Shown here piece by piece: positions 1 to 22,274 of a DNA stretch of 41,171 nucleotides. The stretch lies in contig QHVE01000047.1 of NCBI GenBank assembly GCA_003223455.1, positions 1 to 41,171 on the forward strand, in the 5' to 3' direction. The first letter of the stretch is position 1. Each line of letters starts with the position of its first letter. Below the pieces are notes generated by a model. The model was not told the DNA's origin. It made no database searches and worked only from the letters and a program-made list of their open reading frames with translations. The translations under genes were made by a program, and so were the position numbers. The stretch is from Gemmatimonadota bacterium (GTDB lineage: Bacteria > Gemmatimonadota > Gemmatimonadetes > Gemmatimonadales > Gemmatimonadaceae).

Positions 1-744
1 GAGCTCGGTCTCGAATGGTATCGAATCCGCGGGAGAACGCTGAACGGCTTTCGCGACCGCGTCGTGCACCCGGCGCTCGCGTCACGAGCGAGCCATCGCG
101 ATCTGGCGAATCCCGGTCCGTTCGAGCAGCGCGTATCACCGGTCCTGCGCGAGGATTTCGTGCGACGGCACCGGCTGCGCGAGCGCGAGCGTGAAGCTGC
201 GCCGTACGGACGCTATCCAACGTTGTCGTCCACCGAGCAGCTCTGGAGCATGACCACACCGATGTTCCCGCGCATCCGCGCGACGCTCACGGCCGCCCAG
301 CTCCGCGCCGGCGTCACGGCACGGACGCCGTTCCTCGACGACCGACTGTATCGCTTCGCGATGTCGCGCCCGCGCAGGGAGCGCGTCGTCGCGCGCGAGA
401 CGAAGCGACTCCTGCGGCACGCCATGCGGGGAATGCTCCCGGACGCGTTCCTCGCGCCGCGTCCAGAACGCACCGGCGTCACGACGCAGTACATGCGCGA
501 GGCGATGCGAGGGCCGGCCCGGCCGTTCTTCGACGCCGTGTTCGAGCGTCCGATGCTCGCGGAGCTCGGCATCATCGACGCCGCACGATTGCGCGAAGAC
601 TGGCGGCAGTACGCCGAATCGGGTGAAGGCCTTCCCGTGCGCCTGTACGAACTGCTGCAGGCGGAGCTCTGGCTGCGCGCGCATCAGGGCTCCGCCCCGG
701 CCGTCAGTGCGCCAGCGGACGCCGCGCCGGTGCCTGTCTCGTGA
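1..744 (+). CDS. Asparagine-synthase-like amidotransferase, C-terminal part (lasso-cyclase-like), 5' truncated by window edge
   Basis: The reading frame is open from base 1, so about 247 C-terminal residues are seen and the start lies outside the window. The visible part has the hallmarks of the C-terminal half of the asparagine synthase fold: the TPFLDDRL motif, a following basic stretch (KRLLRHAMRGMLPD) and the closing helix ending YELLQAELWLRAH. The ATP pyrophosphatase SGGxDS loop must lie upstream. Families with this C-terminal end include lasso peptide macrolactam synthetases (C proteins) and other AsnB-like enzymes. The next genes (HPr-kinase-like protein, ABC ATPase, ABC permease) favour the lasso-type reading. 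That is inference, because precursor, B1 and B2 genes are not in view. The gap to the next start is about 28 bases. Confidence 0.8.
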   Translation, partial: ELGLEWYRIRGRTLNGFRDRVVHPALASRASHRDLANPGPFEQRVSPVLREDFVRRHRLREREREAAPYGRYPTLSSTEQLWSMTTPMFPRIRATLTAAQLRAGVTARTPFLDDRLYRFAMSRPRRERVVARETKRLLRHAMRGMLPDAFLAPRPERTGVTTQYMREAMRGPARPFFDAVFERPMLAELGIIDAARLREDWRQYAESGEGLPVRLYELLQAELWLRAHQGSAPAVSAPADAAPVPVS

Positions 745-772
745 ACGCGTCACGTCACTCGACCGTGGCGTT

Positions 773-1762
773 ATGCGCCACGAACCCAACGCCATGAACA
801 GCTATCAGGTATTCGGCGGCGTCCTCCGCTCCGAGCTCGAGTTTCCCGAGCTCGACCCCGCGATGCGTGGAGACGCCGACTGGACGCTCGTCGTGACCAC
901 GACGCCCGCGCCCGACGTTCCACTCGACGCGCCGCTCGGCGAGGACAAGGTCGACCAGGGCGTGATGGTGCGCTCGTATGCGACGCCGACGGGCTTCCGT
1001 CTCGTGTACGACGACACGGGAATCTTCGACGTGACCGATGGCGGCCGCGAGATCCGGTGGCATCGCCCGGAGTCGGCCGACCTCGAGGCCGGGCGGCTCG
1101 ACGTCCTCGGACGCGTGCTCGCTCTCGCGTTGCACGCATCCGGGTGGCTGTCGCTGCACGGCAGCGCCGTCGCGCTCGCCGAAGGCGCCGTCGCTTTCCT
1201 GGCGCCGAAGGGGAACGGCAAGTCGACGCTCGCGTTCGCGCTGATGCGCGCCGGAGCCGCCCTCATGACCGACGACACCGTGGTGATCGGCAGCGGATCG
1301 CCGCCCACGGTGCGCCCAGGCGTACAGAGTGTGCGACTGTTTCGCGACTCGGCCGATTGGCTGTCGGCGACGGCACCGATCGCCGGCAGCTCCGACATCA
1401 AGGCGACGTTCGGCCAGCTCTCGGACGACGCGCGCCGCCTCACCCGCGCGCCGCTCGCCGCGCTCTACCTCCTGGAGTCCGTTCCCGCGGGCACCATCGC
1501 CGAACCGGTAGCGCGTCAGCGATTGGAGGGACCCGAGGCGGTGCTCGGTCTCCTTGGCCAGACGAAGATCGGTGCGCTGCTGGGAGGCGCCGAGGCGCCG
1601 ACCGTGTTCGCCTCCGTCGTCGCGCTCGCGGAAGGGAGCGCGATTTACAAGCTGCGCGTCACGCGCGACTACGAGCGCCTCGGCACGGTCATCGAGCGGA
1701 TCATCGGATGGCACGGCGGCGTGGGCGCGCGCGCGAACACGCTCGAGGGCTCCCGGACGTGA
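773..1762 (+). CDS. HPr-kinase/P-loop kinase-like protein
   Basis: About 329 residues. The N-terminus carries the YxVFGxxLRSELxxPEL pattern common to HPr-kinase-like proteins found with PqqD, asparagine-synthase and lasso-type clusters. A P-loop, PKGNGKST, sits near residue 145, preceded by a SLHGSAVAL strand and followed by a TDDTVVI acidic motif, as in the HPrK C-terminal kinase fold. Canonical HPr kinases phosphorylate HPr, but homologues in lasso clusters phosphorylate the precursor peptide. Which substrate applies here is unknown. ATG 773 is chosen because an earlier in-frame ATG (623) would overlap the upstream gene by 120 bases. ATG 794 is an alternative. Its stop overlaps the next GTG start by four bases (GTGA), so the two are probably translationally coupled. 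Confidence 0.8.
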   Translation: MRHEPNAMNSYQVFGGVLRSELEFPELDPAMRGDADWTLVVTTTPAPDVPLDAPLGEDKVDQGVMVRSYATPTGFRLVYDDTGIFDVTDGGREIRWHRPESADLEAGRLDVLGRVLALALHASGWLSLHGSAVALAEGAVAFLAPKGNGKSTLAFALMRAGAALMTDDTVVIGSGSPPTVRPGVQSVRLFRDSADWLSATAPIAGSSDIKATFGQLSDDARRLTRAPLAALYLLESVPAGTIAEPVARQRLEGPEAVLGLLGQTKIGALLGGAEAPTVFASVVALAEGSAIYKLRVTRDYERLGTVIERIIGWHGGVGARANTLEGSRT

Positions 1763-2790
1763 CGCTCGCGGCACCCGCGAACCTGCGCCCCGTCTCGTCG
1801 ATGTCGAGCCCCGAGCCCGCACTTCGGCTGCACGATCTGTCGAAGCGCTTCAAGGTGCGCCGCAGCCTGCGCGAGACGCTGCTCCACCCGAAGGACGCGA
1901 CGTTCGTACACGCCGTGCAGCATGTGAGCTGCGAGGTGCAGACGGGCGAGTTCTTCGGTCTGCTCGGGCCCAACGGGGCGGGGAAGACGACGCTGTTCAA
2001 GATGCTCGCGACGCTCACGTCGCCCGACGAAGGGACCGTGCGGCGGATGATCGCGCCCGTCGCCGCGGACGAGCGTGGGCTGCACTGGCGGCTCTCGGCA
2101 CTGGAGAACCTTCGCCTGTTCGCCACGCTCTATTCCCTGCGCGGCAGCGAGCTCGAAGCGCGCGTCGACGAGGTGCTGGGCGTGGTTGGGCTTCGCGGCG
2201 CCGAGCGACGCACCGTCGGCACCTACTCATCCGGCATGCGGCAACGCCTGCTCATCGCCCGTGCGCTGTTGATCCGTCCACGAGTCCTCCTGCTCGACGA
2301 GCCGACGCGCAGCCTCGATCCCGTGTCGGCGCGCGACTTCCGGCAGTTTCTGCGTGCCGAAGTCGCCGGCCCGGCTGGGTGCACCGTCGTGCTGGCGACG
2401 CACAGTCCCGAGGAGGCGCTCGAGCTGTGCGACCGCGTCGCGGTGCTGAACAAGGGTCGGCTGCTCGCGGTCGGACCGGCGCGCGCGCTCGAGCGACAGT
2501 ACAGCGACGAGCGCTATCACGTCCGAACCCGAAATGCGGGCCATCAGGTCTTTCGTGAGCTCGAGGCGCGCGGGATGATCGAACGCGTCACCATCGGGGA
2601 TGTCGACGTCGACGGGTGGACGTCCGTGGAGTGCCATGTTCCCGGGGGCGCCGACGAAGCGGCGCAGGTGCTCGCCGCGCTCGCTGGTGCGGGGGTCAGT
2701 GTCGCCGGCTTCGATCGACTCGAGCTCTCCCTCGCCGACCTCATCGAGCGCATCGTGCGCACGCGCGAGCCGGGAGCGTCCGATGCGTAG
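1759..2790 (+). CDS. ABC transporter ATP-binding protein (ABC-2/DrrA-like)
   Basis: 343 residues when read from GTG 1759, which has a GAGGG ribosome-binding site about nine bases upstream and overlaps the previous stop. ATG 1801 is a weaker alternative. Walker A is GPNGAGKTT (around residue 70). The signature is the variant SSGMRQR, Walker B is LLLLDEPTRSLDP and the H-loop is LATHSP. The ADERGLHWRLSALENL segment resembles ATPases of drug or peptide exporters of the ABC-2 class. A C-terminal domain of about 100 residues follows the nucleotide-binding domain. It pairs with the permease that overlaps its 3' end by eight bases and likely energises export of the product of this operon. Confidence 0.88.
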   Translation: MTLAAPANLRPVSSMSSPEPALRLHDLSKRFKVRRSLRETLLHPKDATFVHAVQHVSCEVQTGEFFGLLGPNGAGKTTLFKMLATLTSPDEGTVRRMIAPVAADERGLHWRLSALENLRLFATLYSLRGSELEARVDEVLGVVGLRGAERRTVGTYSSGMRQRLLIARALLIRPRVLLLDEPTRSLDPVSARDFRQFLRAEVAGPAGCTVVLATHSPEEALELCDRVAVLNKGRLLAVGPARALERQYSDERYHVRTRNAGHQVFRELEARGMIERVTIGDVDVDGWTSVECHVPGGADEAAQVLAALAGAGVSVAGFDRLELSLADLIERIVRTREPGASDA

Positions 2791-3560
2791 CGCCCTCGCG
2801 CTCATCCGTGTCAGCCTGCTCACCGCGGCGAGCTACCGCCTGGCGTGGATCATGTCCATCGCGGGGCTCGCGCTGCAGATCGTGCCGACGTACTACATCG
2901 GCCGCACGCTCGATCCCTTTCTCGCGCCGGCGATCAAGGGCGAGGGGAGCGACTATTTCGGCTTTCTCGTCATGGGGACGGTCGCCTACCTGCTCCTCGC
3001 CGCCGCCGTCGACTCGCTGCCGCGCGCGCTGGAGCGCGGCATCAACACGGGCACGCTCGAGCTGATCTTCAGCACTCCCTCGTCGGTGCCGTCGCTGCTC
3101 GTCGGGCTCACGGGCTACGAGCTGCTATGGGCGACGGCGCGCTGCATCGTCGTCCTCGGCGCGGCGGCGGTGTTCGGGTTCCACGCGCACTGGCTGCGCT
3201 TCGGCGAGGCGGCGGTCATCCTCGCGATGGTCGTCGCCACTTACTTCGGCGCGGGAATGATCGCCGGCGCGATGATCATCGCCTACCGGCGCACCGCGTC
3301 GATACAGACCGTGGTCATCGTCGGCTCAGCGATGCTCGGCGGCGTGACGTATCCGACGAAGCTCGTGCCGACGTGGATCGATGACGTACGGCATTCGGGC
3401 CGTGCGGCGCATCACGATCGACGACTGGCCGCTGCGCGCGGTTCTGCCCGACGTGGGCACGCTGAGCCTTTTCTGCATCGCGTTCCTCGCGGCCGGCTCG
3501 CTCGCGATGACGCACGCGCTTCGGCGCGCGCGTGCGGAAGGCACGCTCTCGCAATACTGA
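2783..3560 (+). pseudogene. ABC-2 type permease, frameshifted
   Basis: The frame opened by ATG 2783 encodes a typical ABC-2 permease with about five hydrophobic segments up to GGVTYPTKLVPTWI near 3379. In that frame the following residues are Arg/His-rich nonsense running to 3979. The missing C-terminus is found in another frame from about 3381: TYGIRAVRR, then a hydrophobic helix (LSLFCIAFLAAGSLAM), ending at TGA 3558-3560. In the family, about nine residues (end of a loop and a PLTYG-like motif) usually separate PTWI from YGIRA. The lesion therefore looks like a deletion of roughly 26 bases, not a single-base slip. The partner ATPase is intact. It is either a decayed exporter or an assembly error. 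Confidence 0.75.
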
Positions 3561-3616
3561 CGGGCCTCGCGTCCAGCCGTCGGCAGCACGGCACGAGACT
3601 CCCTCCGGCACCGACA

Positions 3617-3631
3617 CTTGCATTATGCAAG
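3617..3631. repeat. Perfect 15-bp palindrome (operator candidate)
   Basis: CTTGCATTATGCAAG: 7-bp arms around a central T, in non-coding DNA about 380 bases ahead of the riboswitch. The symmetry and AT content stand out in this GC-rich region, as expected of a dimeric repressor or activator site. No protein is known to bind it. Confidence 0.4.
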
Positions 3632-3765
3632 AAGAGGCATGTGCGCCAACGCACCGCCGGGGGCGCGATACGCGCGCATGATGTCGTCCGCTGGTTGCGT
3701 CGTCCGATGACGCGTCCGGTCGCAGCCCCCGCCCGCACGACCCATCTCTCGGCTCGACAGGCACT

Positions 3766-3787
3766 TTCGTTTCCCATTGAAAACGAA
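3766..3787. repeat. Inverted repeat TTCGTTT-N8-AAACGAA
   Basis: Perfect 7-bp arms separated by eight bases, AT-rich relative to its surroundings and located 210 bases before the riboswitch. It may be an operator or lie within the promoter. It has no U-rich tail, so it is a poor terminator candidate. Confidence 0.35.
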
Positions 3788-3997
3788 TGCTCCAGGCCGT
3801 TACGGGAGGCAGCACGGTTCGTCGTATGGGCGTCGGCAGCGTGCACGATCGCGTTGCAAACGGCAAGACATGCAGACGAAGTACGGCGAACGGGTACCGG
3901 TAGCGTTTGTCGATGCTTCGTGCAGTGCAATCATGAACTTCCGTCAACCGTCAGCATCACCCCGCACGCAGTAGCGTAGTCCACCGGCAGGATCGCT

Positions 3998-4016
3998 TTC
4001 CCTCCGCGCGAGGGAA
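3998..4016 (+). promoter_or_regulatory. Leader hairpin carrying an anti-Shine-Dalgarno sequence
   Basis: TTCCCTC (3998-4004) pairs perfectly with GAGGGAA (4010-4016) around a five-base loop, directly 5' of the c-di-GMP aptamer. The segment TTCCCTCC (3998-4005) is also perfectly complementary to the ribosome-binding site GGAGGGAA at 4116-4123. The hairpin and the RBS pairing are mutually exclusive, which makes this a candidate expression platform for the riboswitch. The pairing is read from the sequence; the switching role is inferred. Confidence 0.6.
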
Positions 4017-4104
4017 TCGCGACAAAGGCAAACCCGGCGAAAGCCGGCGACGCAAAGCTACGAGGCTACGGCGACCACGAGTCGCTATGCCAGTCGGGCC
4101 GCCG
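4015..4104 (+). promoter_or_regulatory. Cyclic-di-GMP-I (GEMM-I) riboswitch aptamer
   Basis: The core conserved blocks of GEMM-I appear in order. They are AAAGGCAAACC (4024-4034), a stem CCGGC-GAAA-GCCGG with the expected GNRA tetraloop, then GACGCAAAGC (4050-4059). Next come a second arm closed by GCGAC/GTCGC (4071-4085) and the 3' block TATGCCAGTCGGGCCGCC (4086-4103), matching the family's AUGxxAGCCGGGUUGCC. The element lies 12 bases before the Shine-Dalgarno of the lipoprotein gene at 4129. GEMM-I RNAs bind c-di-GMP and usually control motility, matrix or surface genes. Confidence 0.92.
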
Positions 4105-4115
4105 AACGAGTCCTC

Positions 4116-4123
4116 GGAGGGAA
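4116..4123 (+). promoter_or_regulatory. Shine-Dalgarno GGAGGGAA of the lipoprotein gene
   Basis: A strong GGAGG core lies eight bases before ATG 4129. It fixes this start over ATG 4087, which lies inside the aptamer's 3' half. It is complementary to 3998-4005. Confidence 0.85.
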
Positions 4124-4128
4124 GCCCC

Positions 4129-7100
4129 ATGCGTCGCCACTCTTGGAGTGGCGCGGCCGTGCTGGCCGCGCTCTCACTGGTCGCCGTCGGCTGCAGCTCG
4201 GACAGCAGCGCTCCGGTCGAATCCGCCCACGAGCCCACGGGCTCCGCACAGATCGCGCTGTCACGAAAGTTCGACACGTTGAGTGTCGACCAGTCCGTGC
4301 AGCTCACGGCCATCGTTCCGCCCGCACCGGGCGCCGCCGCACCGCCGGTCAGCTGGGCGAGCTCCGACACCAGCGTGGCGATCGTCGGGAAGACCGGTGT
4401 GCTGTTCGCGCGCAAGCCGGGTCGCACCACGATCTCGGCGACGATGCGTGGCAACAGCGACGCGATGGTGGTGTCGGTGAAGCCCGGCATCCGCGACATC
4501 GACTTCGAGTCCGATTCGCTGGCGATCAGCCTCACGCAGTCGGTGAAGATTCCGTTCCACGTCACCGACACCGACGGCAACCCGGTCGACCTCAGCAAGC
4601 ACACGGTGGAGTGGATCTCGACCGCGCCGAACGTCGCCGGCATGACGGCCGACGCGACGGTGACGGGTCGCGCCATCGGCCGCACCGACATCCTCCTGCG
4701 CGTCGACAGCAAGGTCGCCGCGACCGGCGTGCGGGTGTATTCGAAGCCCGTGGCCAGCCTGTTCGTCTCGCCCTCCAGCCTCGCGCTGTCGAACGGGCAG
4801 TCGGCGACGCTCGTGGCAACCACCTACGACGTGAATGGCGATCCGATCACCGGACGCAATGTCGGCTGGGGAACTTCGAACTCAAAGGTTGCGACCGTCA
4901 ACGATGCGGGAGTCGTGACGACGATCGCGCAAGGCACGGCCGAGATCACGGCGAATGCCGAAGGCCGCAAGTCGGTCGTGCCGGTCACGGTGACGTCCGG
5001 TTCATCGAACAACGCCACCTCGGTCGCGTCAGTGGTCGTGGCGCTCAACGCGCCGTCGTTGGTAGCGGGGCAGTCCACGCAGGCCACCGCCACACTGAAG
5101 GACGCGAACGGCAACGTCCTGACGGACCGCTCCGTCGGGTGGAGCAGCTCCGACGTTACGGTGGCCTCGGTGAGCGCGACCGGTCTCGTCACCGCGCTCA
5201 AGGCGGGCACCGTGACGGTCACCGCCAGCGCGGACGGCAAGTCCGGCAACGCCTCGCTCGTCGTCTCCGCGCCGTCGGTGAGCGTCGCGTCGATCGATCT
5301 GACGCTTCCGTCGTCCCTCAACGTGGGGCAGACGGCGCAGGCTGCGGTGACGCTGAAGGACGCACAGGGCAACGTTCTCACCGGCCGGACCATCACCTAC
5401 GTGTCGTCGAACTCCAACATCGCCAGCGTCAGCACCACCGGTCTCGTCTCGGCGATCAACGGCGGTTCCGCGACGATCACCGCCAGCGCGGAGAGCCACT
5501 CCGCGAGCGTGGTGGTCACGTCGGTGGCGCCGAAGCCGGCCGTGCAATCGATCACGCTGACGATCAACGCGTCGACGATCGACATCGGCGAGCTGACGCA
5601 GGTCAACGCGGTCGCCAAGGATGCCAACGGCACGCCGATCTCGGGCGTCCCCATCACCTGGTCGGCTTCGCCGACCGCCGTCGCCACCGTCTCGTCGTCG
5701 GGGATGGCCACGGCACACAGCGTTGGTACCGCGCAGATCTACGCCAAGGCCGACGCGGTCACGAGCAACATCGCCCTCAATGTGATCGACCCGAACGTGA
5801 CCAGTCCGACCTCGCCGACCAGCCCGGGTGGCACCGGCACGCTCGCCGCCGTCGCCACGATGGCCGAATTGCCGCGGGCCAGTGTGGGGACCGCGTATCC
5901 CACGCCGGCACGCCAGGTGCGGGTGCCGGCCGGCTCCAACCTGCAGTCGGCGATCGACGCCGCGCAGCCGGGTGACGAGCTCCTGCTCGCGCCGGGCGCG
6001 ACGTTCACCGGCAACTTCATTCTGCCCAACAAGGGCTCGAGCACGGCGTGGATCACGATCCGCACCGATGTGTCGGACGCCACGCTCGGCGCACCCGGTA
6101 CGCGCATGACGCCGAGTCGCGCCGCGAGCGCGAACCTCGCGAGGATCCTCACGCCGAACAACGAGGGCGCGATCGCGACCGCGCTCCTCTCGCACCACTA
6201 TCGCCTCACCGGGCTCGAGATCGCCGGGACGAGCTCCGCGACCGAGGTCAGCGGCATCGTCCGCTTCGGCGACGGCTCGAGTGCGCAGAACAGCCTCACG
6301 CTCGTCGCTCACGACCTCGTGCTCGATCGCTCGTTCGTGCACGGACAGGCCACGCAGTCCATCCGCCGGTGCGTGTCTCTCCAGAGCGCCGCGTCGGCCA
6401 TCATCGATTCGTGGATCTCGGACTGCCACAGCAACAATGGCGATTCGCAGGGCATCGTCGGCTGGAACGGCCCGGGCCCGTACCTCATCAAGAACAACCA
6501 CATCGAGGGCGGCCATCAGGGCCTGTTCTTCGGTGGTGCGGATCCGTCGATCACGAATCTCTCGCCGTCCGACATCACCGTGATCGGCAACCACATCACG
6601 CGGCCGGTCACCTGGAACGGCGTGTGGCAGACCAAGACCATCATCGAGACGAAGAACGCCCGCCGCATGCTCCTCGAAGGCAACGTGATCGAGAACGTGT
6701 GGGCGTCGGCGCAGAACGGCTTCGGCGTGCTGCTCAAGTCGGAGAACCAGGACGGCGCGGCGCCGTGGACCCAGTCGACGGACATCACGGTGCGCTACAA
6801 CAAGATCCGGAACGTCGGCAGCGGGATCAACATCGCCGCCAACGGCGGATACAATCCGGCGGTGCCGGCGGCGCGAATCTCGATCTACGACAACACGATC
6901 GACAACTTGGGCCGGGCGCCGTACATCGGCGACGGCATCCCGCTGCAGATTCTCGGCGGCACGTACGACATCCTCGTCGCCCACAACTCCTGGTCGAACG
7001 CCGGCAACCAGGCCATCAGCTTCGACAACGGGGTGACGACGCGCACCGCCATCCACTCCAACATCATTCCGAGCGGCGCATACGGTGTGAAGGGCACCAA

Positions 7101-7317
7101 CCAGGGTACGGGCATGACGACGATCAACTACTACATGCCGAACGGAGTCTTCTCCTACGATGCGATCGTCGGCGGCGACTGCGGCGCGTACCCGGCGACG
7201 ACCAGCTGTCCGAGCACCATTCCGGCTTCGCCGGGGAACGGCTACGACGCCCGCCCCGTCGGTGCCGACATGGCCAGGATCAACACCGCGACGAGCACGG
7301 CGATCGTCAATCCCTGA
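4129..7317 (+). CDS. Surface lipoprotein with Big_2 Ig-like repeats and a C-terminal beta-helix
   Basis: 1062 residues. A signal peptide (RRHSWSGAAVLAALSLVAVGC) ends at a lipobox with Cys22, so it is predicted to be lipidated and sent to the cell envelope. Residues about 40-555 hold roughly six Big_2-type bacterial Ig-like domains, recognisable by repeated SVGWSSSDxxVASVxxxGLVTAxxxGTxxITA units. A Thr/Ser/Pro/Gly linker (TSPTSPTSPGG) follows. Residues about 590-1062 resemble right-handed parallel beta-helix proteins, starting with RVPAGSNLQSAIDAAQPGDELLLAPG, as in polysaccharide lyases and carbohydrate-binding surface proteins. No catalytic residues can be assigned. Position beside a polysaccharide locus and control by a c-di-GMP riboswitch suggest an adhesin or matrix-binding or matrix-trimming role. 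It is monocistronic, with its own terminator. Confidence 0.9.
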   Translation: MRRHSWSGAAVLAALSLVAVGCSSDSSAPVESAHEPTGSAQIALSRKFDTLSVDQSVQLTAIVPPAPGAAAPPVSWASSDTSVAIVGKTGVLFARKPGRTTISATMRGNSDAMVVSVKPGIRDIDFESDSLAISLTQSVKIPFHVTDTDGNPVDLSKHTVEWISTAPNVAGMTADATVTGRAIGRTDILLRVDSKVAATGVRVYSKPVASLFVSPSSLALSNGQSATLVATTYDVNGDPITGRNVGWGTSNSKVATVNDAGVVTTIAQGTAEITANAEGRKSVVPVTVTSGSSNNATSVASVVVALNAPSLVAGQSTQATATLKDANGNVLTDRSVGWSSSDVTVASVSATGLVTALKAGTVTVTASADGKSGNASLVVSAPSVSVASIDLTLPSSLNVGQTAQAAVTLKDAQGNVLTGRTITYVSSNSNIASVSTTGLVSAINGGSATITASAESHSASVVVTSVAPKPAVQSITLTINASTIDIGELTQVNAVAKDANGTPISGVPITWSASPTAVATVSSSGMATAHSVGTAQIYAKADAVTSNIALNVIDPNVTSPTSPTSPGGTGTLAAVATMAELPRASVGTAYPTPARQVRVPAGSNLQSAIDAAQPGDELLLAPGATFTGNFILPNKGSSTAWITIRTDVSDATLGAPGTRMTPSRAASANLARILTPNNEGAIATALLSHHYRLTGLEIAGTSSATEVSGIVRFGDGSSAQNSLTLVAHDLVLDRSFVHGQATQSIRRCVSLQSAASAIIDSWISDCHSNNGDSQGIVGWNGPGPYLIKNNHIEGGHQGLFFGGADPSITNLSPSDITVIGNHITRPVTWNGVWQTKTIIETKNARRMLLEGNVIENVWASAQNGFGVLLKSENQDGAAPWTQSTDITVRYNKIRNVGSGINIAANGGYNPAVPAARISIYDNTIDNLGRAPYIGDGIPLQILGGTYDILVAHNSWSNAGNQAISFDNGVTTRTAIHSNIIPSGAYGVKGTNQGTGMTTINYYMPNGVFSYDAIVGGDCGAYPATTSCPSTIPASPGNGYDARPVGADMARINTATSTAIVNP

Positions 7318-9984: not shown

Positions 9985-11907
9985 TCAGAGAAGCCGCAGG
10001 GACTCGGCGGGCTCGCCTTCCACCACGACCCGGTGCCAGATCTCGAGGTTCACCAGCGACCACAGGCGCTCGGCGTGATCCTCCCCCGCCTGATGCCGCC
10101 GCACGAGCGCGCGGATCGACTCGGGATCGAACAGCCGCCGCTCCAGCGCGCGCGGCGACAGCACGAGCTCGTCGACCACGGCGCGATAGGGGCCGCGCAG
10201 CCACGACCCGATCGGCACCGGGAAGCCCATCTTGCCGCGCGACAGAATCTCCGGCGGCAGCACGTCGCGCATCGCCTCCCGCAGGATGAACTTCGTCGTC
10301 CCGCCGCGCAGCTTGAGCCGCTCCGGCAGCGTGGCCGTCCACTCGACGAGCGGATGGTCGAGGAACGGGACGCGACTCTCGATCGACGCGGCCATGCTCA
10401 TCTGGTCCTGCTTCATGAGCAGCTCGTGCAGGTATGTCTTTGTGTCGACGTACAGCAGCCGGTCGAGCAGCGACCTGGCGTCCGAGCCGGCCATGAGCGC
10501 CATCGCCGTGGCGTACGGATCCTCGCTCGCCAGCCGCGCCCGCAGTGTCGGCGCCAGGAGGCCGGCCTGCTGCTCGCGTGAGAACACCGCGAAGTTGTCG
10601 AGGTAGAGTGCCTCGAGCGTCGCCGGTCGTGCGAGGAACGTCCGCAGTGCGCGCTGCCGCGTGCGCGACGCGGGAAGTGCCTCGAGCCCCGAGCGCACGA
10701 GCGAGCGCAGGGGCGCCGGCGTCGCCGACTGGTAGGCACCGCCGAGCCGCATGTTGAGGATCGTCTTCTTGTAGCGGCCGTACCCCGCCAGCGTCTCGTC
10801 GCTTCCCTCGCCCGTGAGCACGACCTTCACGCGCTCGGCGGCGAGCCGCGACACGAAGTTGAGCGCCACGCTCGACGGATGCGCCAGCGGCTCGTCCTCG
10901 TGCCACACGAGCGTCGGCAGCGCGCCGAAGAACTGCTCGGGGGTCACCACCACCTCGTGGTGGTCGGTCTTGTACGCCTTGGCGACGATCCGTGCGTACG
11001 AGAGCTCGTTGGCCTCGCGCTCGGCGAATCCGACGGAGAAGGTCTTGATCGGCTCGTCGACCAGCTGGCTCATGAGCGCGGTGATCGTCGCCGAGTCGAT
11101 CCCTCCCGAGAGGAAGGCACCGAGGGGGACATCGGCCATCAACCGAAGTCGAACGGCCTCGCGCAGGCGCTCGCGATACTCGGTGATCAGCTCCGCATCC
11201 GAACGCGTGTCCTCGGCCTTCGCTTCGAATCGCAGGTCCCAGTATCGTCGCGTGCGGATCTCGCCGTCGCGCCACACGAGTGTGTGTCCGGGCAGCAGCC
11301 GCTTGATGCCGGCGAGCAGCGTGCCCTCGCCAGACGTCGCGTGATTGGCGAGATAGTCGGGAAGGGCATCTTCCCGCAGCGAAGCGCGTACCAGGCCGCT
11401 CGCGACGATCGCCTTCATCTCCGAGCCGAACACCAGCGTCCCGTCCGGGAGCAGCGCGTAGTACAGCGGCTTCACGCCGAACCGGTCGCGCGCCAGCGTG
11501 AGCGTGCGCGTCCGCTTGTCCCACACCGCGTAGGCGAACATCCCGCGCAGCTCCTCGGGCGCCGCCTCGCCACGCCGCTCGAACACGTGCAGCACCGTCT
11601 CCGTGTCGCAGTGCGTGCGATAGCGCACGCCGTCCTGCTGCAGCTGCGCCATCAGCGTGGGATGGTTGAACACCTCGCCGTTGTACACGAGCACGAGCGC
11701 ATCGTCGGCGCTCGTCATCGGTTGCTGCCCGTGGCTCACGTCCACGATGCTCAATCGGCGATGGCCAAGCGCGACCCCCGGCTCGATGAAGGTGCCGAAG
11801 CCGTCCGGACCGCGATGCGCGAGCGTGTCGCGCAGACGGGTGAACGCCGAGTCGTCGATCGAGCGCGATGAGGAGTCCGGGATCACGATCCCGCAGATGC
11901 CGCACAT
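9985..11907 (-). CDS. asnB: AsnB-type glutamine-dependent amidotransferase (first full copy)
   Basis: 640 residues. The N-terminal class II glutaminase domain begins MCGICG with the nucleophile Cys2, then RGPDG (32-36) and YNGEVFNH. The synthetase domain carries LSGGIDSAT at 266-274 and the C-terminal RVPFLDHPLVEW motif. It activates a carboxylate as an acyl-adenylate and amidates it with ammonia from glutamine. Within polysaccharide loci, homologues such as WbpS are associated with amidated uronic acids, and algD lies two genes downstream, so a sugar acid is a plausible substrate. True asparagine synthesis cannot be excluded. It lies eight bases after the heparinase-like gene. Confidence 0.9.
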   Translation of the reverse strand: MCGICGIVIPDSSSRSIDDSAFTRLRDTLAHRGPDGFGTFIEPGVALGHRRLSIVDVSHGQQPMTSADDALVLVYNGEVFNHPTLMAQLQQDGVRYRTHCDTETVLHVFERRGEAAPEELRGMFAYAVWDKRTRTLTLARDRFGVKPLYYALLPDGTLVFGSEMKAIVASGLVRASLREDALPDYLANHATSGEGTLLAGIKRLLPGHTLVWRDGEIRTRRYWDLRFEAKAEDTRSDAELITEYRERLREAVRLRLMADVPLGAFLSGGIDSATITALMSQLVDEPIKTFSVGFAEREANELSYARIVAKAYKTDHHEVVVTPEQFFGALPTLVWHEDEPLAHPSSVALNFVSRLAAERVKVVLTGEGSDETLAGYGRYKKTILNMRLGGAYQSATPAPLRSLVRSGLEALPASRTRQRALRTFLARPATLEALYLDNFAVFSREQQAGLLAPTLRARLASEDPYATAMALMAGSDARSLLDRLLYVDTKTYLHELLMKQDQMSMAASIESRVPFLDHPLVEWTATLPERLKLRGGTTKFILREAMRDVLPPEILSRGKMGFPVPIGSWLRGPYRAVVDELVLSPRALERRLFDPESIRALVRRHQAGEDHAERLWSLVNLEIWHRVVVEGEPAESLRLL

Positions 11908-19143: not shown

Positions 19144-20352
19144 TCACGACCCCATGAGGCCCCCGACCGACCGTAAGAGCCCGAAGCTGTGCTGGATGAA
19201 CCGCCGTGCAGCCGAGGTCTGCGCGTTCCGCATGCCGCCCGCTACCCGAACCCATTCCCGCGTGTCGAGCCACGGTCGGGACGCGCCATGTCCCTGGGCG
19301 CGTGGCTGGATGCCCAGGCTCCAGAGCGCGCGCGACAGCGACACCGAGTTCACGATCAGATCCGGGTTGGGCAGCGCGTGCTCGGCGAAATACCGCGTGA
19401 GCGAGCGCAGCACTCGGTTCGGGAGACGCGGGGCGAGCTGACCGAGCACCTCCGACGGAACGGCGACGCTGGCGAGATCCCGCGCCAGGCGCAGCGCCCA
19501 GTAGCAGCATGTGGCGCCGCGCGCCGCGCGCGCCTTGCGCACGAGTGTCGCCCAGTCGACCGGACCGGCCGCCAGGATGCGCTCGATGTCACGCAGGGTG
19601 CGGAACGCGCCGAACGTCATCTCGTGCGACCACGCGAAATGCAGCGCCGCGTGAAGCAGCTGGTCTTCCGGGCTGGGTACGTACGCGGGCTGGCCACCGA
19701 TCGTGATTCGGCGTGCGCTCTCCCACAGCTGCTCGGGGGGGAGACGGAACGGCGCCTGCAGCGTGAACAGCGCCGTGTGAAGTTCGAGCCCGATCTGCAG
19801 GCCGTCGGCATCCTCGAGCGGCGACAGGTGCTGATGGTCCGCATAGCTGCGCTCCTCCGCCACGTCGCCACGCCGCGTCCATCCATTGCCCAACGCCAGC
19901 TCCCACGCGCGCTGCGCCTTCTCCCCACGCACGAGCAGGTCGATGTCGCCCATGGGCCGCTCGGTCGGCCGCGCATACGCCGAGTGGGCGAGACCAGCCC
20001 CCTTCAACAGAAGCACATCGATGTCGTGGCCGGCATACAGCCCGAGCAGCTTGACCAACCGGTCGTGCAGCGACGAAAGCTGGAACTCCGACACGAGGGC
20101 GAGACGCTGCAGATTCGCCAGTTCCTCCGGGCGCGGACCGCGGAGCGGGGTTTGCGCCAGCTGCTCGCTCAGCGCGACGATCGCGCGCTCTCGTGCCGCG
20201 AGATGCATGAGACGCTCCCAGTCCACCGGACGGTCGAGCAGGCCACGCAGCGACTCCTGACCCGCCGGATTCGACGTCGCCAACGCGATCAGCGCCGACT
20301 CCGTGGGCAGCTGATCCAGCAGCCGCTCGGCGGTGGGATGCGCGTCGCTCAT
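19144..20352 (-). CDS. Nucleotidyltransferase-fold protein (PF14907-like)
   Basis: 402 residues. The central LLLKGAGLAHSAYARP segment followed by RPMGDIDLLV (residues 132-141) is the signature of the nucleotidyltransferase_5 family, with the GD-x-D pair that binds metal. Such proteins are repeatedly found in polysaccharide loci of the exosortase type. Their substrate is not known, so no reaction is assigned. The remainder is largely alpha-helical, with HFAWSHEMTFGAFRTLRDIERIL downstream. The start ATG 20352 overlaps the stop of the upstream asnB copy (ATGA). It is the last gene before the 352-base gap. Confidence 0.85.
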   Translation of the reverse strand: MSDAHPTAERLLDQLPTESALIALATSNPAGQESLRGLLDRPVDWERLMHLAARERAIVALSEQLAQTPLRGPRPEELANLQRLALVSEFQLSSLHDRLVKLLGLYAGHDIDVLLLKGAGLAHSAYARPTERPMGDIDLLVRGEKAQRAWELALGNGWTRRGDVAEERSYADHQHLSPLEDADGLQIGLELHTALFTLQAPFRLPPEQLWESARRITIGGQPAYVPSPEDQLLHAALHFAWSHEMTFGAFRTLRDIERILAAGPVDWATLVRKARAARGATCCYWALRLARDLASVAVPSEVLGQLAPRLPNRVLRSLTRYFAEHALPNPDLIVNSVSLSRALWSLGIQPRAQGHGASRPWLDTREWVRVAGGMRNAQTSAARRFIQHSFGLLRSVGGLMGS

Positions 20353-22274
20353 GCCGAGACCGTGTTGACGTTCGCCGTCGCCGCCGACTGCCGGACCGCC
20401 GGCGCCAGAGGCGATGCGTGCGCCAGTCGTCCTTCGGCGAGCGCGCCGAGCCAGATCTCGAGCGCGATGAGCCGCCACAGCAGATGGCTGTGGTCGCGGC
20501 GTGCCGAGCGATGCTCGAGAACGAGTCGGGCGACGGCGTCACGGTCGACGAACGGCGCGATGCGCGACTCCGGCTCCATGAGCGCGTCGAGTCGGTAGCG
20601 GAGATCCTCCCGGAACCATCGCGCGAGCGGCACGCCGAACCCGTGTTTCGGATGCGCCAGCACGCGCGGCGGGACCAGACCGTCGATCGCCTGGCGCAGC
20701 AGCCATTTCCCCACGCCGTTTCGTTGCTTCAGGCGACTCGGCATCGCCATCGCGAATTCCACGATGTGATGGTCGAGCAGCGGCACCCGCGCCTCGAGCG
20801 AGACCGCCATGCTCATCCGGTCGACCTTCGTCAGGATGTCGCCTGGCAGGTACGTCACCAGGTCCACCGCCGTCAGCTGGGCGAGCAGGTCGCGTCCCGC
20901 CACCGGAGAGAACGCTGCGGAGAGCAGTGCGTCCATCGGAGGGATGTCGCTCGCCAGTTGCGCGCTGAGCACTCCGCCTTCGCTCACGTCCGGCGGAACG
21001 GCGACGGTCGCCGCGTATCGACCCTGGAGCGTCCGCGTCATGTCGAGCATTCGGTTCCGGCCGCGCGTACCGTGCGGCAGGTGCGCGACGACGCGCGAGA
21101 GCGCCGTGCGTGCAAACCCGGGCAGCTCGCGCCGCGACAGCAGCTCCGCGTATCGGGTGTATCCGCCGAACAGCTCGTCGCCGCCGTCTCCCGAGAGCGC
21201 GACGGTCACGTGCTCGCGCGCCATCTGCGAGACGAGGAACGTCGGCAGTGCCGATGAATCGCCGAACGGCTCGTCGAAGCCGGTGATCACCGAGTCGACC
21301 AGGCTGTCCACGTCGGGGCGCACGATCAGCTCCGTGTGCTCGGTGCCGATCTCGCGCGCCACGAGTGCCGCGTGCGGCGCCTCGTTGTGCGACGCCTCCT
21401 CGAAGCCGATCGAGAACGTCTTCACGCGGCCCGGGACGAGTCGCGCCATCTGGGCGACGACGGCCGACGAGTCCGTCCCTCCCGAGAGAAACGCCCCGAG
21501 CGGCACGTCCGACTCGAGATGCAGCGCGACCGACTCCCGTAGGAGCGCGCGCAGCGACTCGATCGCTTCCTCGTCGCGCGTCTCGGTGCGCTCGGCTCGC
21601 AGCGGAGACCAGTACGCGTCGATGCGCGGTGCGCTCCCCGGCTCCCACGTCAGTCGGTGTCCCGGTGGCAGCTTCCGAACTCCATCGAAGATGCAGTGCG
21701 ACTCCGGCACGTACCCGAACGTCAGGTACTGCGCCACGGCCTGTGGGCACACCACGGCCGTGAACTCCGGCATTGCGATCAGCGAGCGCAGCTCCGAGGC
21801 GAACGCGAGACCGCCGGCGTGCTCCCAGACGTAGAGCGGCTTGATGCCGACCCGATCGCGCGCGATGAGCAGGCGACGGCGCCGCGTGTCCCACAGCGCG
21901 AACGCGAACATGCCGCGCAGCGCGTCGACGACGCCGTCTCCCAGGTCCTCGTACAGGTGCACGATCACTTCGGTGTCGCTCGACGTCGCCATCGTATGGC
22001 CGCGGGCGACGAGCTCCCGACGCAGCTGCCGGTGATTGTAGATCTCACCGTTGAACACGAGCTGGATCGTGCCGTCCTCGTTGCTCATCGGCTGCTGCCC
22101 GAGTGCGGGATCCATCACGCTGAGCCGACGCATCCCCAGCGCGATCTCCGACGCCAGATAGCGACCCTCCTCGTTGGGGCCACGATGGACGATCGCCGCA
22201 CACATCGCGCGCAGCGACGCCTGCCGCTCGCTCTCGGAGCCCGAGCCCGCCGCGAATCCCACGATGCCGCACAT
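20349..22274 (-). CDS. asnB: AsnB-type glutamine-dependent amidotransferase (second full copy)
   Basis: 641 residues with the complete two-domain plan: MCGIVGF with nucleophile Cys2, HRGPNEEG, FNGEIYNH, then LSGGTDSSA at 263-271, SGDGGDELFGGY and ARVPLLDHHIVEF. It is closer to the general AsnB type than the first copy (GDGGDELFGGY versus GEGSDETLAGY), so the two are paralogues, not a recent duplication. As for the other copy, the acceptor could be aspartate or a sugar acid. It starts six bases after the Wzy-like gene and overlaps the nucleotidyltransferase gene. Confidence 0.9.
   Translation of the reverse strand: MCGIVGFAAGSGSESERQASLRAMCAAIVHRGPNEEGRYLASEIALGMRRLSVMDPALGQQPMSNEDGTIQLVFNGEIYNHRQLRRELVARGHTMATSSDTEVIVHLYEDLGDGVVDALRGMFAFALWDTRRRRLLIARDRVGIKPLYVWEHAGGLAFASELRSLIAMPEFTAVVCPQAVAQYLTFGYVPESHCIFDGVRKLPPGHRLTWEPGSAPRIDAYWSPLRAERTETRDEEAIESLRALLRESVALHLESDVPLGAFLSGGTDSSAVVAQMARLVPGRVKTFSIGFEEASHNEAPHAALVAREIGTEHTELIVRPDVDSLVDSVITGFDEPFGDSSALPTFLVSQMAREHVTVALSGDGGDELFGGYTRYAELLSRRELPGFARTALSRVVAHLPHGTRGRNRMLDMTRTLQGRYAATVAVPPDVSEGGVLSAQLASDIPPMDALLSAAFSPVAGRDLLAQLTAVDLVTYLPGDILTKVDRMSMAVSLEARVPLLDHHIVEFAMAMPSRLKQRNGVGKWLLRQAIDGLVPPRVLAHPKHGFGVPLARWFREDLRYRLDALMEPESRIAPFVDRDAVARLVLEHRSARRDHSHLLWRLIALEIWLGALAEGRLAHASPLAPAVRQSAATANVNTVSA

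Follow-up and report, generated by a model that had tools for sequence, protein, structure and literature searches.

In lasso peptide pathways, the protein B1 binds a YxxPx motif in the leader of the precursor (A), the peptidase B2 cuts after Thr(-2)-X(-1) and the cyclase C joins residue 1 to an Asp or Glu (PMC10368454, PMC8498205, PMC9266682, PMC10885120). Lasso-associated homologues of HPr kinase modify a C-terminal Ser, and do so before cyclisation (PMC8498205, PMC9266682). In the paeninodin, ThcoK and SyanK clusters (PMC8498205, PMC9266682), B1, C and an HprK-like kinase (K) are encoded in one operon, export is by ATP-binding cassette (ABC) proteins and the precursors have a C-terminal Ser, at which phosphorylation is known. 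In the bsf system of Bradymonas (BsfK/BsfB1/BsfB2), B1 and B2 are separate proteins and B1 assists both the kinase and the peptidase (PMC10368454). Here we describe a related set of genes at the left edge of a 41,171-nucleotide stretch (hereafter the window) of a Gemmatimonadaceae genome (GCA_003223455.1, hereafter G000; 5.0 Mb in 127 contigs, which are given C-numbers). Contig C5 (QHVE01000047.1, ~50 kb) has the window at its left end, the two sharing base 1. We propose, on sequence grounds and with a probability of about 0.6, that these genes form a lasso cassette, B1-C-K-ATPase-permease, which would act in trans on dispersed precursors and phosphorylate their C-terminal Ser.

The cassette shares the B1, C and kinase content, the ABC genes and the Ser-terminal precursors of the paeninodin-type clusters. 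Unlike those clusters, in which precursor and B2 are also encoded, here both are unlinked, by which we mean on a different contig within the stretches inspected of fragmented genomes; the exporter genes form an ABC-2 ATPase/permease pair, and K is very distant in sequence. The separate B1 and B2, and the spacing of the kinase H, GxGKS and DD motifs, are as in bsf. However, bsf is fully clustered, with Ile(-2), a phosphorylated Ser3 and a nucleotidyltransferase, whereas the genes described here combine Thr(-2) and a C-terminal Ser with a cassette lacking a nucleotidyltransferase.

An earlier, sequence-only reading of the window had recognised an AsnB-like C-terminal domain, an HPr-kinase-like protein and an ABC ATPase/permease pair in a coupled operon, and all four were confirmed at positions 1-3560 (Table 1). 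Gene junctions are tight, with a gap or overlap at 744/773, 1762/1759 and 2790/2783, and there are fair grounds to regard the cassette genes as one coupled operon. The reading had further placed the precursor and the B proteins upstream of base 1. All genome-wide statements made here are profile searches of genomes. The sole PqqD match in G000 (C19:777-980, minus strand) lies near a contig edge. Read outward to this edge, C19 encodes a phosphoglucomutase, B1 and an open reading frame (ORF) beginning MSAIFAVVGG (C19:1-681, minus strand; 227 residues), which runs off the contig end and represents the N-terminal domain of an AsnB/lasso-C protein. The two contigs are bridged by L038, a 10.5-kb locus identical to contig C188 of genome G007, which comes from another species of the same genus (61-86% identity between shared proteins) and was the sole match in a scan of genome contigs with K as query. 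Positions 308-1194 of L038 align to C19 and positions 1807-5409 to window positions 3-3560, with the match continuing past the cassette, whilst the window part of C aligns to residues 397-637 of the 642-residue L038 protein (65-66% identity). The predicted gap between C19 and C5 is ~500 nucleotides and falls inside C (L038 C residues 228-395). Because these nucleotides are unassembled, we infer, with good support, that C19 adjoins C5 and that the two together carry B1-C-K-ABC-ABC. In L038 the order is B1-C-K-ATPase-permease, and genes for a Big2/beta-helix protein and a UDP-glucose dehydrogenase come next. Phosphoglucomutase, sought as a marker to place G007 among its congeners, had no match in this genome (77% complete).

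No B2 was found in C19/C5 or in L038, and neither of two precursor profiles matched contig C5 or C19:1-12000. Small ORFs together with motif and profile scans also gave no precursor between C and K, 5' of B1 or between the permease and the next gene. Thus, of the upstream genes expected by the sequence-only reading, B1 was present on C19, whereas B2 and precursor were absent and a phosphoglucomutase stood there instead. That reading would have given up the lasso claim had the upstream sequence held only polysaccharide genes and no B1, B2 or precursor; with B1 present and the other two missing, the claim is revised, not rejected. The end of contig C66 was considered as the missing upstream part and set aside, its B2-like match being below the cut-off and on the wrong strand.

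The cassette is very probably of lasso type. The best NCBIfam model for L038 C was the lasso cyclase model NF033535 (193.7 bits, 5.8e-57; trusted cut-off of 525 bits not reached), and its score against the XrtA amidotransferase model TIGR03108 was lower (159.1 bits). NF033535 was also the best model for the N-terminal part of C on C19 (1.6e-30, below trusted cut-off), and albusnodin/lasso models were the best matches of the C-terminal part in the window. SGGxDS (SGGWDS, residue 264) and GGDE (GGDELF, residue 373) are both present in L038 C. The glutaminase Cys2 is absent from C (N-terminus MSAIF), whereas the two XrtA amidotransferases of the window start with MCGI, keeping Cys2, and reach ~595 bits to TIGR03108; given the lower TIGR03108 score and the lack of Cys2, we rejected C as an XrtA amidotransferase. 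A PDB sequence search with C returned AsnB-type matches only, and the best solved-structure match of B1 was the lasso protein TbiB1 (5v1u). The lasso assignment of the earlier reading was thus borne out by the upstream B1, by the remainder of C and by homologues in fuller lasso loci.

K had no Pfam match, a match to TIGR04352 (1e-8) below its cut-off and, like B2, no match among PDB sequences. Its AlphaFold model (predicted local distance difference test score 92.6) adopts an HprK/PEPCK fold, with PEPCK (Z 16.6, 265 residues, 4.8 A) and HPr kinase/phosphatase as nearest folds (Foldseek, HprK/P 1kkl, 1.3e-5). H129, GxG-K-S and the DD motif are retained: relative to this His, Gly occurs at +18 and +20, Lys at +21, Ser at +22 and DD at +38/39, and the first Gly (H+15) is replaced by Ala. 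The spacing otherwise matches that given for BsfK (PMC10368454). Across 23 K homologues, the H, S and V of HxSxV and the GK and DD columns were invariant. G000 C52 encodes a further HprK-like protein, only distantly similar at 30% identity (L018:7785-8150), and no AsnB or PqqD neighbours were detected there.

Across the family, homologues of C, K and the ABC proteins are found in more complete lasso loci whose precursors can be recognised. With a threshold of E <= 1e-30, K homologues occupied 40 places in 34 of the 179 family genomes that form our comparison set. At 36 of the 40, a precursor of one family (MYExPKLERFGTFRELTQ...) was encoded on the same contig within ~3.5 kb; the other four comprised one place truncated where its contig ends (G063), one left unclassified (G129), and the window and L038, both without precursor. 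The usual order is B1-(B2)-C-A-K-ATPase-permease, as in L043 and L045 (B1-B2-C-A-K-ABC-ABC), and 39 of 52 distinct precursors of the wider family end in Ser. These linked loci resemble the cassette in their homologous B1, C, K, ATPase and permease (~35-57% identity), and their precursors share the leader motif and mostly the C-terminal Ser of the precursors described below. They differ in having A, and often B2, within the locus, and in their cores of ~30-40 residues with Asp at ~8. B2 is absent from some loci that have a precursor (G029:C11, G007:C128), and at least one B2 was encoded in every genome of 18 tested. In G034 the pathway appears to be split, with K-C-A on C76 (L041) and B1-B2-ATPase-permease on C30 (L063), both internal to long contigs. 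Related precursors with HRY or HRYSA tails occur in G143, which belongs to another genus; two are on a short contig end and one adjoins K (L135, on C86, and L136).

A profile built from linked precursors alone, with unlinked candidates left out, matched two orphan mini-genes in G000, on C49 (E 9.5e-8) and C98 (E 9.1e-7; per-genome E values), and several more in G007. The G000 orphan precursors are MYEKPEVKRFGSLRELTKGGGPAGGGDAASVYHRS and MTYQKPSVQRFGSLRELTLGGGSTLQGDATNLYHRS. Four orphans of the same type occur in G007, on C270, C27 (two, facing) and C184. The precursors have 35-36 residues, with a YxKPxV leader, LT(-2)x, Gly1, Asp9 and an AxxxYHRS end; Thr(-2), Gly1, Asp9 and the YHRS tail are common to all six, and the predicted core has 17 residues. 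A purpose-made orphan signature had no match in 1.09 Mb of randomised sequence. A phylum-wide search with an orphan profile (395 genomes) returned no full-length member of the YHRS family outside G000 and G007, and no homologues of B1, C, K or B2 were found on the stretches around the orphans. The C49 (G000) and C184 (G007) orphans are syntenic orthologues with conserved neighbours, and differ at 8, 5 and 18 sites at codon positions 1, 2 and 3, respectively. All six orphans have a purine-rich Shine-Dalgarno-like stretch before the ATG and a long hairpin within 80 nucleotides of the stop (z below -3 in four), consistent with single-gene transcription units. The two C27 orphans (L140:10644-11161) are nearly identical, and a near-perfect palindrome between them (10984-11012) is perhaps a bidirectional terminator. 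Another lasso-like leader of a different type, YVRPVLKRYGDLAQLTQAKGMSGQQADGAIANNNKTV, is encoded in L082 (G007:C39). We consider the orphan precursors to be probable substrates of the cassette.

The sole B2 in G000 above the Pfam cut-off is encoded on C78 (145 residues; NF033537, 78.3 bits against a cut-off of 33). In G007, a separate B1 stands before the counterpart of this B2 and an MsbA-type ABC exporter after it, with no C found nearby on the 9-kb contig. In G000 the B1 before B2 has been lost and its last codons (KRRLIRE) remain (L011:9577-10420), so the C19 B1 is the only B1 left in this genome. Whether the C78 B2 is the leader peptidase of the system we judge to be evenly balanced. Among the 179 family genomes, YHRS precursors, a close K orthologue (80% identity) and a C78-type B2 (76-78% identity; next best 45%) were each confined to G000 and G007, and the orphans, the cassette and the C78-type B2 were all absent from 8 other congeners. 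This co-occurrence fits a system acting in trans. Common descent may give the same pattern, and because G000 and G007 are congeners the co-occurrence is not independent evidence.

The fuller pathway, in which a cassette without its own precursor or B2 serves several precursor mini-genes and borrows a B2 from a third locus, has in our view about even odds, and we infer its steps as follows. Scattered monocistronic genes (C49 and C98 in G000) would produce the 35-36-residue precursors, whose YxxPxV leader motif would be bound by the C19 B1. K would phosphorylate the C-terminal Ser of YHRS, the C78-encoded B2 cysteine peptidase would cut after Thr(-2)-X(-1), and C would adenylate Asp9 and close a Gly1-Asp9 macrolactam, giving a 9-membered ring and an 8-residue tail. 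Export could be via the linked ABC-2 pair or, because this pair looks damaged in G000, via the MsbA/McjD-type ABC exporter adjoining B2 on C78. The sequence-only reading was right about the presence of the ABC pair, but overlooked the permease frameshift and the ATPase deletion. In comparison with its L038 homologue, the ATPase lacks 42 nucleotides (14 residues) in frame after Walker A (junction ~2035/2036). The permease lacks 53 nucleotides at ~3373/3374 and changes frame, its C-terminal part being read from 3381; the two tblastn pieces (2783-3373 and 3381-3557) are each 81-82% identical to L038. Either loss may be genuine or an assembly error.

Several points weigh against such a dispersed pathway. 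The case is made from sequence, which shows the gene content, the bridge between the two contigs, the orphans, their co-occurrence with the cassette and the unlinked B2; the chemical steps and the joint working of these parts are proposals. The scores of C and B1 are under the NCBIfam trusted cut-offs. The G000 counterparts of the C motifs SGGxDS and GGDE fall inside the assembly gap, and these motifs were read in L038 only. The local exporter is damaged in G000, and the C78 B2 would need the C19 B1, a pairing seen nowhere else. In addition, the linked locus on C128 of G007 has its own precursor and could serve the G007 orphans, and the two cassette genomes, being of one genus, may share many genes by descent.

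An alternative that we regard as unlikely is decay, in which the precursor and B2 of a complete ancestral lasso locus disappeared, leaving the cassette and the orphans as functionless remnants. The two exporter deletions in G000, the B1 lost from C78 and a cassette lacking both A and B2 would all suit such a relic. However, the same layout without A and B2 is intact in L038, the catalytic residues of K are kept, and the orthologous orphans differ chiefly at third codon positions while retaining Gly1, Asp9, Thr(-2) and YHRS. Still less probable is a route without B2, by which C, K and B1 would modify peptides (phosphorylation, macrolactam formation or amidation) with no B2 cleavage, or with another protease or route. 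The cassette has no B2 in either genome, the loci G029:C11 and G007:C128 have a linked precursor and no B2, and, to judge from the title of Zyubko 2019 (cited in PMC8498205), pseudomycoidin reportedly forms without leader and leader peptidase; yet a B2 is encoded elsewhere at least once in each of these genomes, the C78-type B2 is present only where the cassette is, and Thr(-2), which B2 recognises, is retained in the precursors. A third reading, highly improbable, would assign the AsnB-like gene to the exopolysaccharide locus of XrtA/PEP-CTERM type in the window (8.7-41 kb, with two amidotransferases) and treat its neighbours as unrelated. In its favour, this locus fills the rest of the window and a UDP-glucose dehydrogenase lies beside the cassette in both genomes; the scores and the missing Cys2 already disfavoured it, and in other genera many loci combine C with B1, K and precursors.

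If the trans-acting cassette is correct, it would parallel, among lasso peptides, the scattered precursors of the prochlorosins. In the prochlorosin/ProcM system (PMC10783134), precursor genes likewise lie singly at dispersed sites of the genome, and one set of enzymes processes their products; those products are lanthipeptides made by a promiscuous LanM from tens of precursors, whereas here two to four similar lasso-type precursors are present. The citrulassin peptidylarginine deiminase (PMC9266682) likewise has its gene far away from the cluster of its lasso pathway, but there the remote part is a tailoring enzyme only, and here it would be precursor and leader peptidase. The open-access literature searched yielded no description of lasso precursors that are dispersed, or of a lasso B2 that is remote. 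Lasso mining relies on precursors adjoining B and C genes. If precursors or B2 can be remote, many cyclase loci dismissed as incomplete may work, and short orphan ORFs with such a signature become searchable. The orphans also provide a defined substrate set for lasso kinases (17-residue cores with Gly1/Asp9 and an invariant YHRS) and bear on the tolerance of a single B1/C pair for several precursors. From their constant tail and separate transcription units, one may suspect signal-like products under individual regulation, and not one antibiotic.

Table 1 Genes of the predicted lasso cassette; positions refer to the window unless a contig is given.
Feature	Position	Strand	Evidence and remarks
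B1 (PqqD-like RiPP (ribosomally synthesised and post-translationally modified peptide) recognition element), adjoins C	C19:738-1178	minus	PF05402 5e-16; TbiB1 5v1u 2.5e-4
Lasso cyclase C, C-terminal ~40%	1..744	+	Begins at contig edge; PF00733 positions 199-354, E 5.8e-18
HPr-kinase-fold lasso precursor kinase K, 329 residues	773..1762, start perhaps ATG 794	+	80% identity to L038 K
ABC ATPase (ABC-2 type)	1759..2790	+	PF00005 1.3e-27
ABC-2 permease, disrupted	2783..3560	+	PF01061 1.4e-6, barely above cut-off

Directly after the cassette, in both G000 and L038, lies a gene for a protein with Big_2 repeats and a right-handed beta-helix (window 4087-7317). The remainder of the window (8718-41171) is an exopolysaccharide locus of the XrtA/PEP-CTERM type, with its two amidotransferases at 9985-11907 and 20349-22274, and also encodes stp1/stp2-type glycosyltransferases, an O-ligase-like protein and a Wzc-like autokinase.

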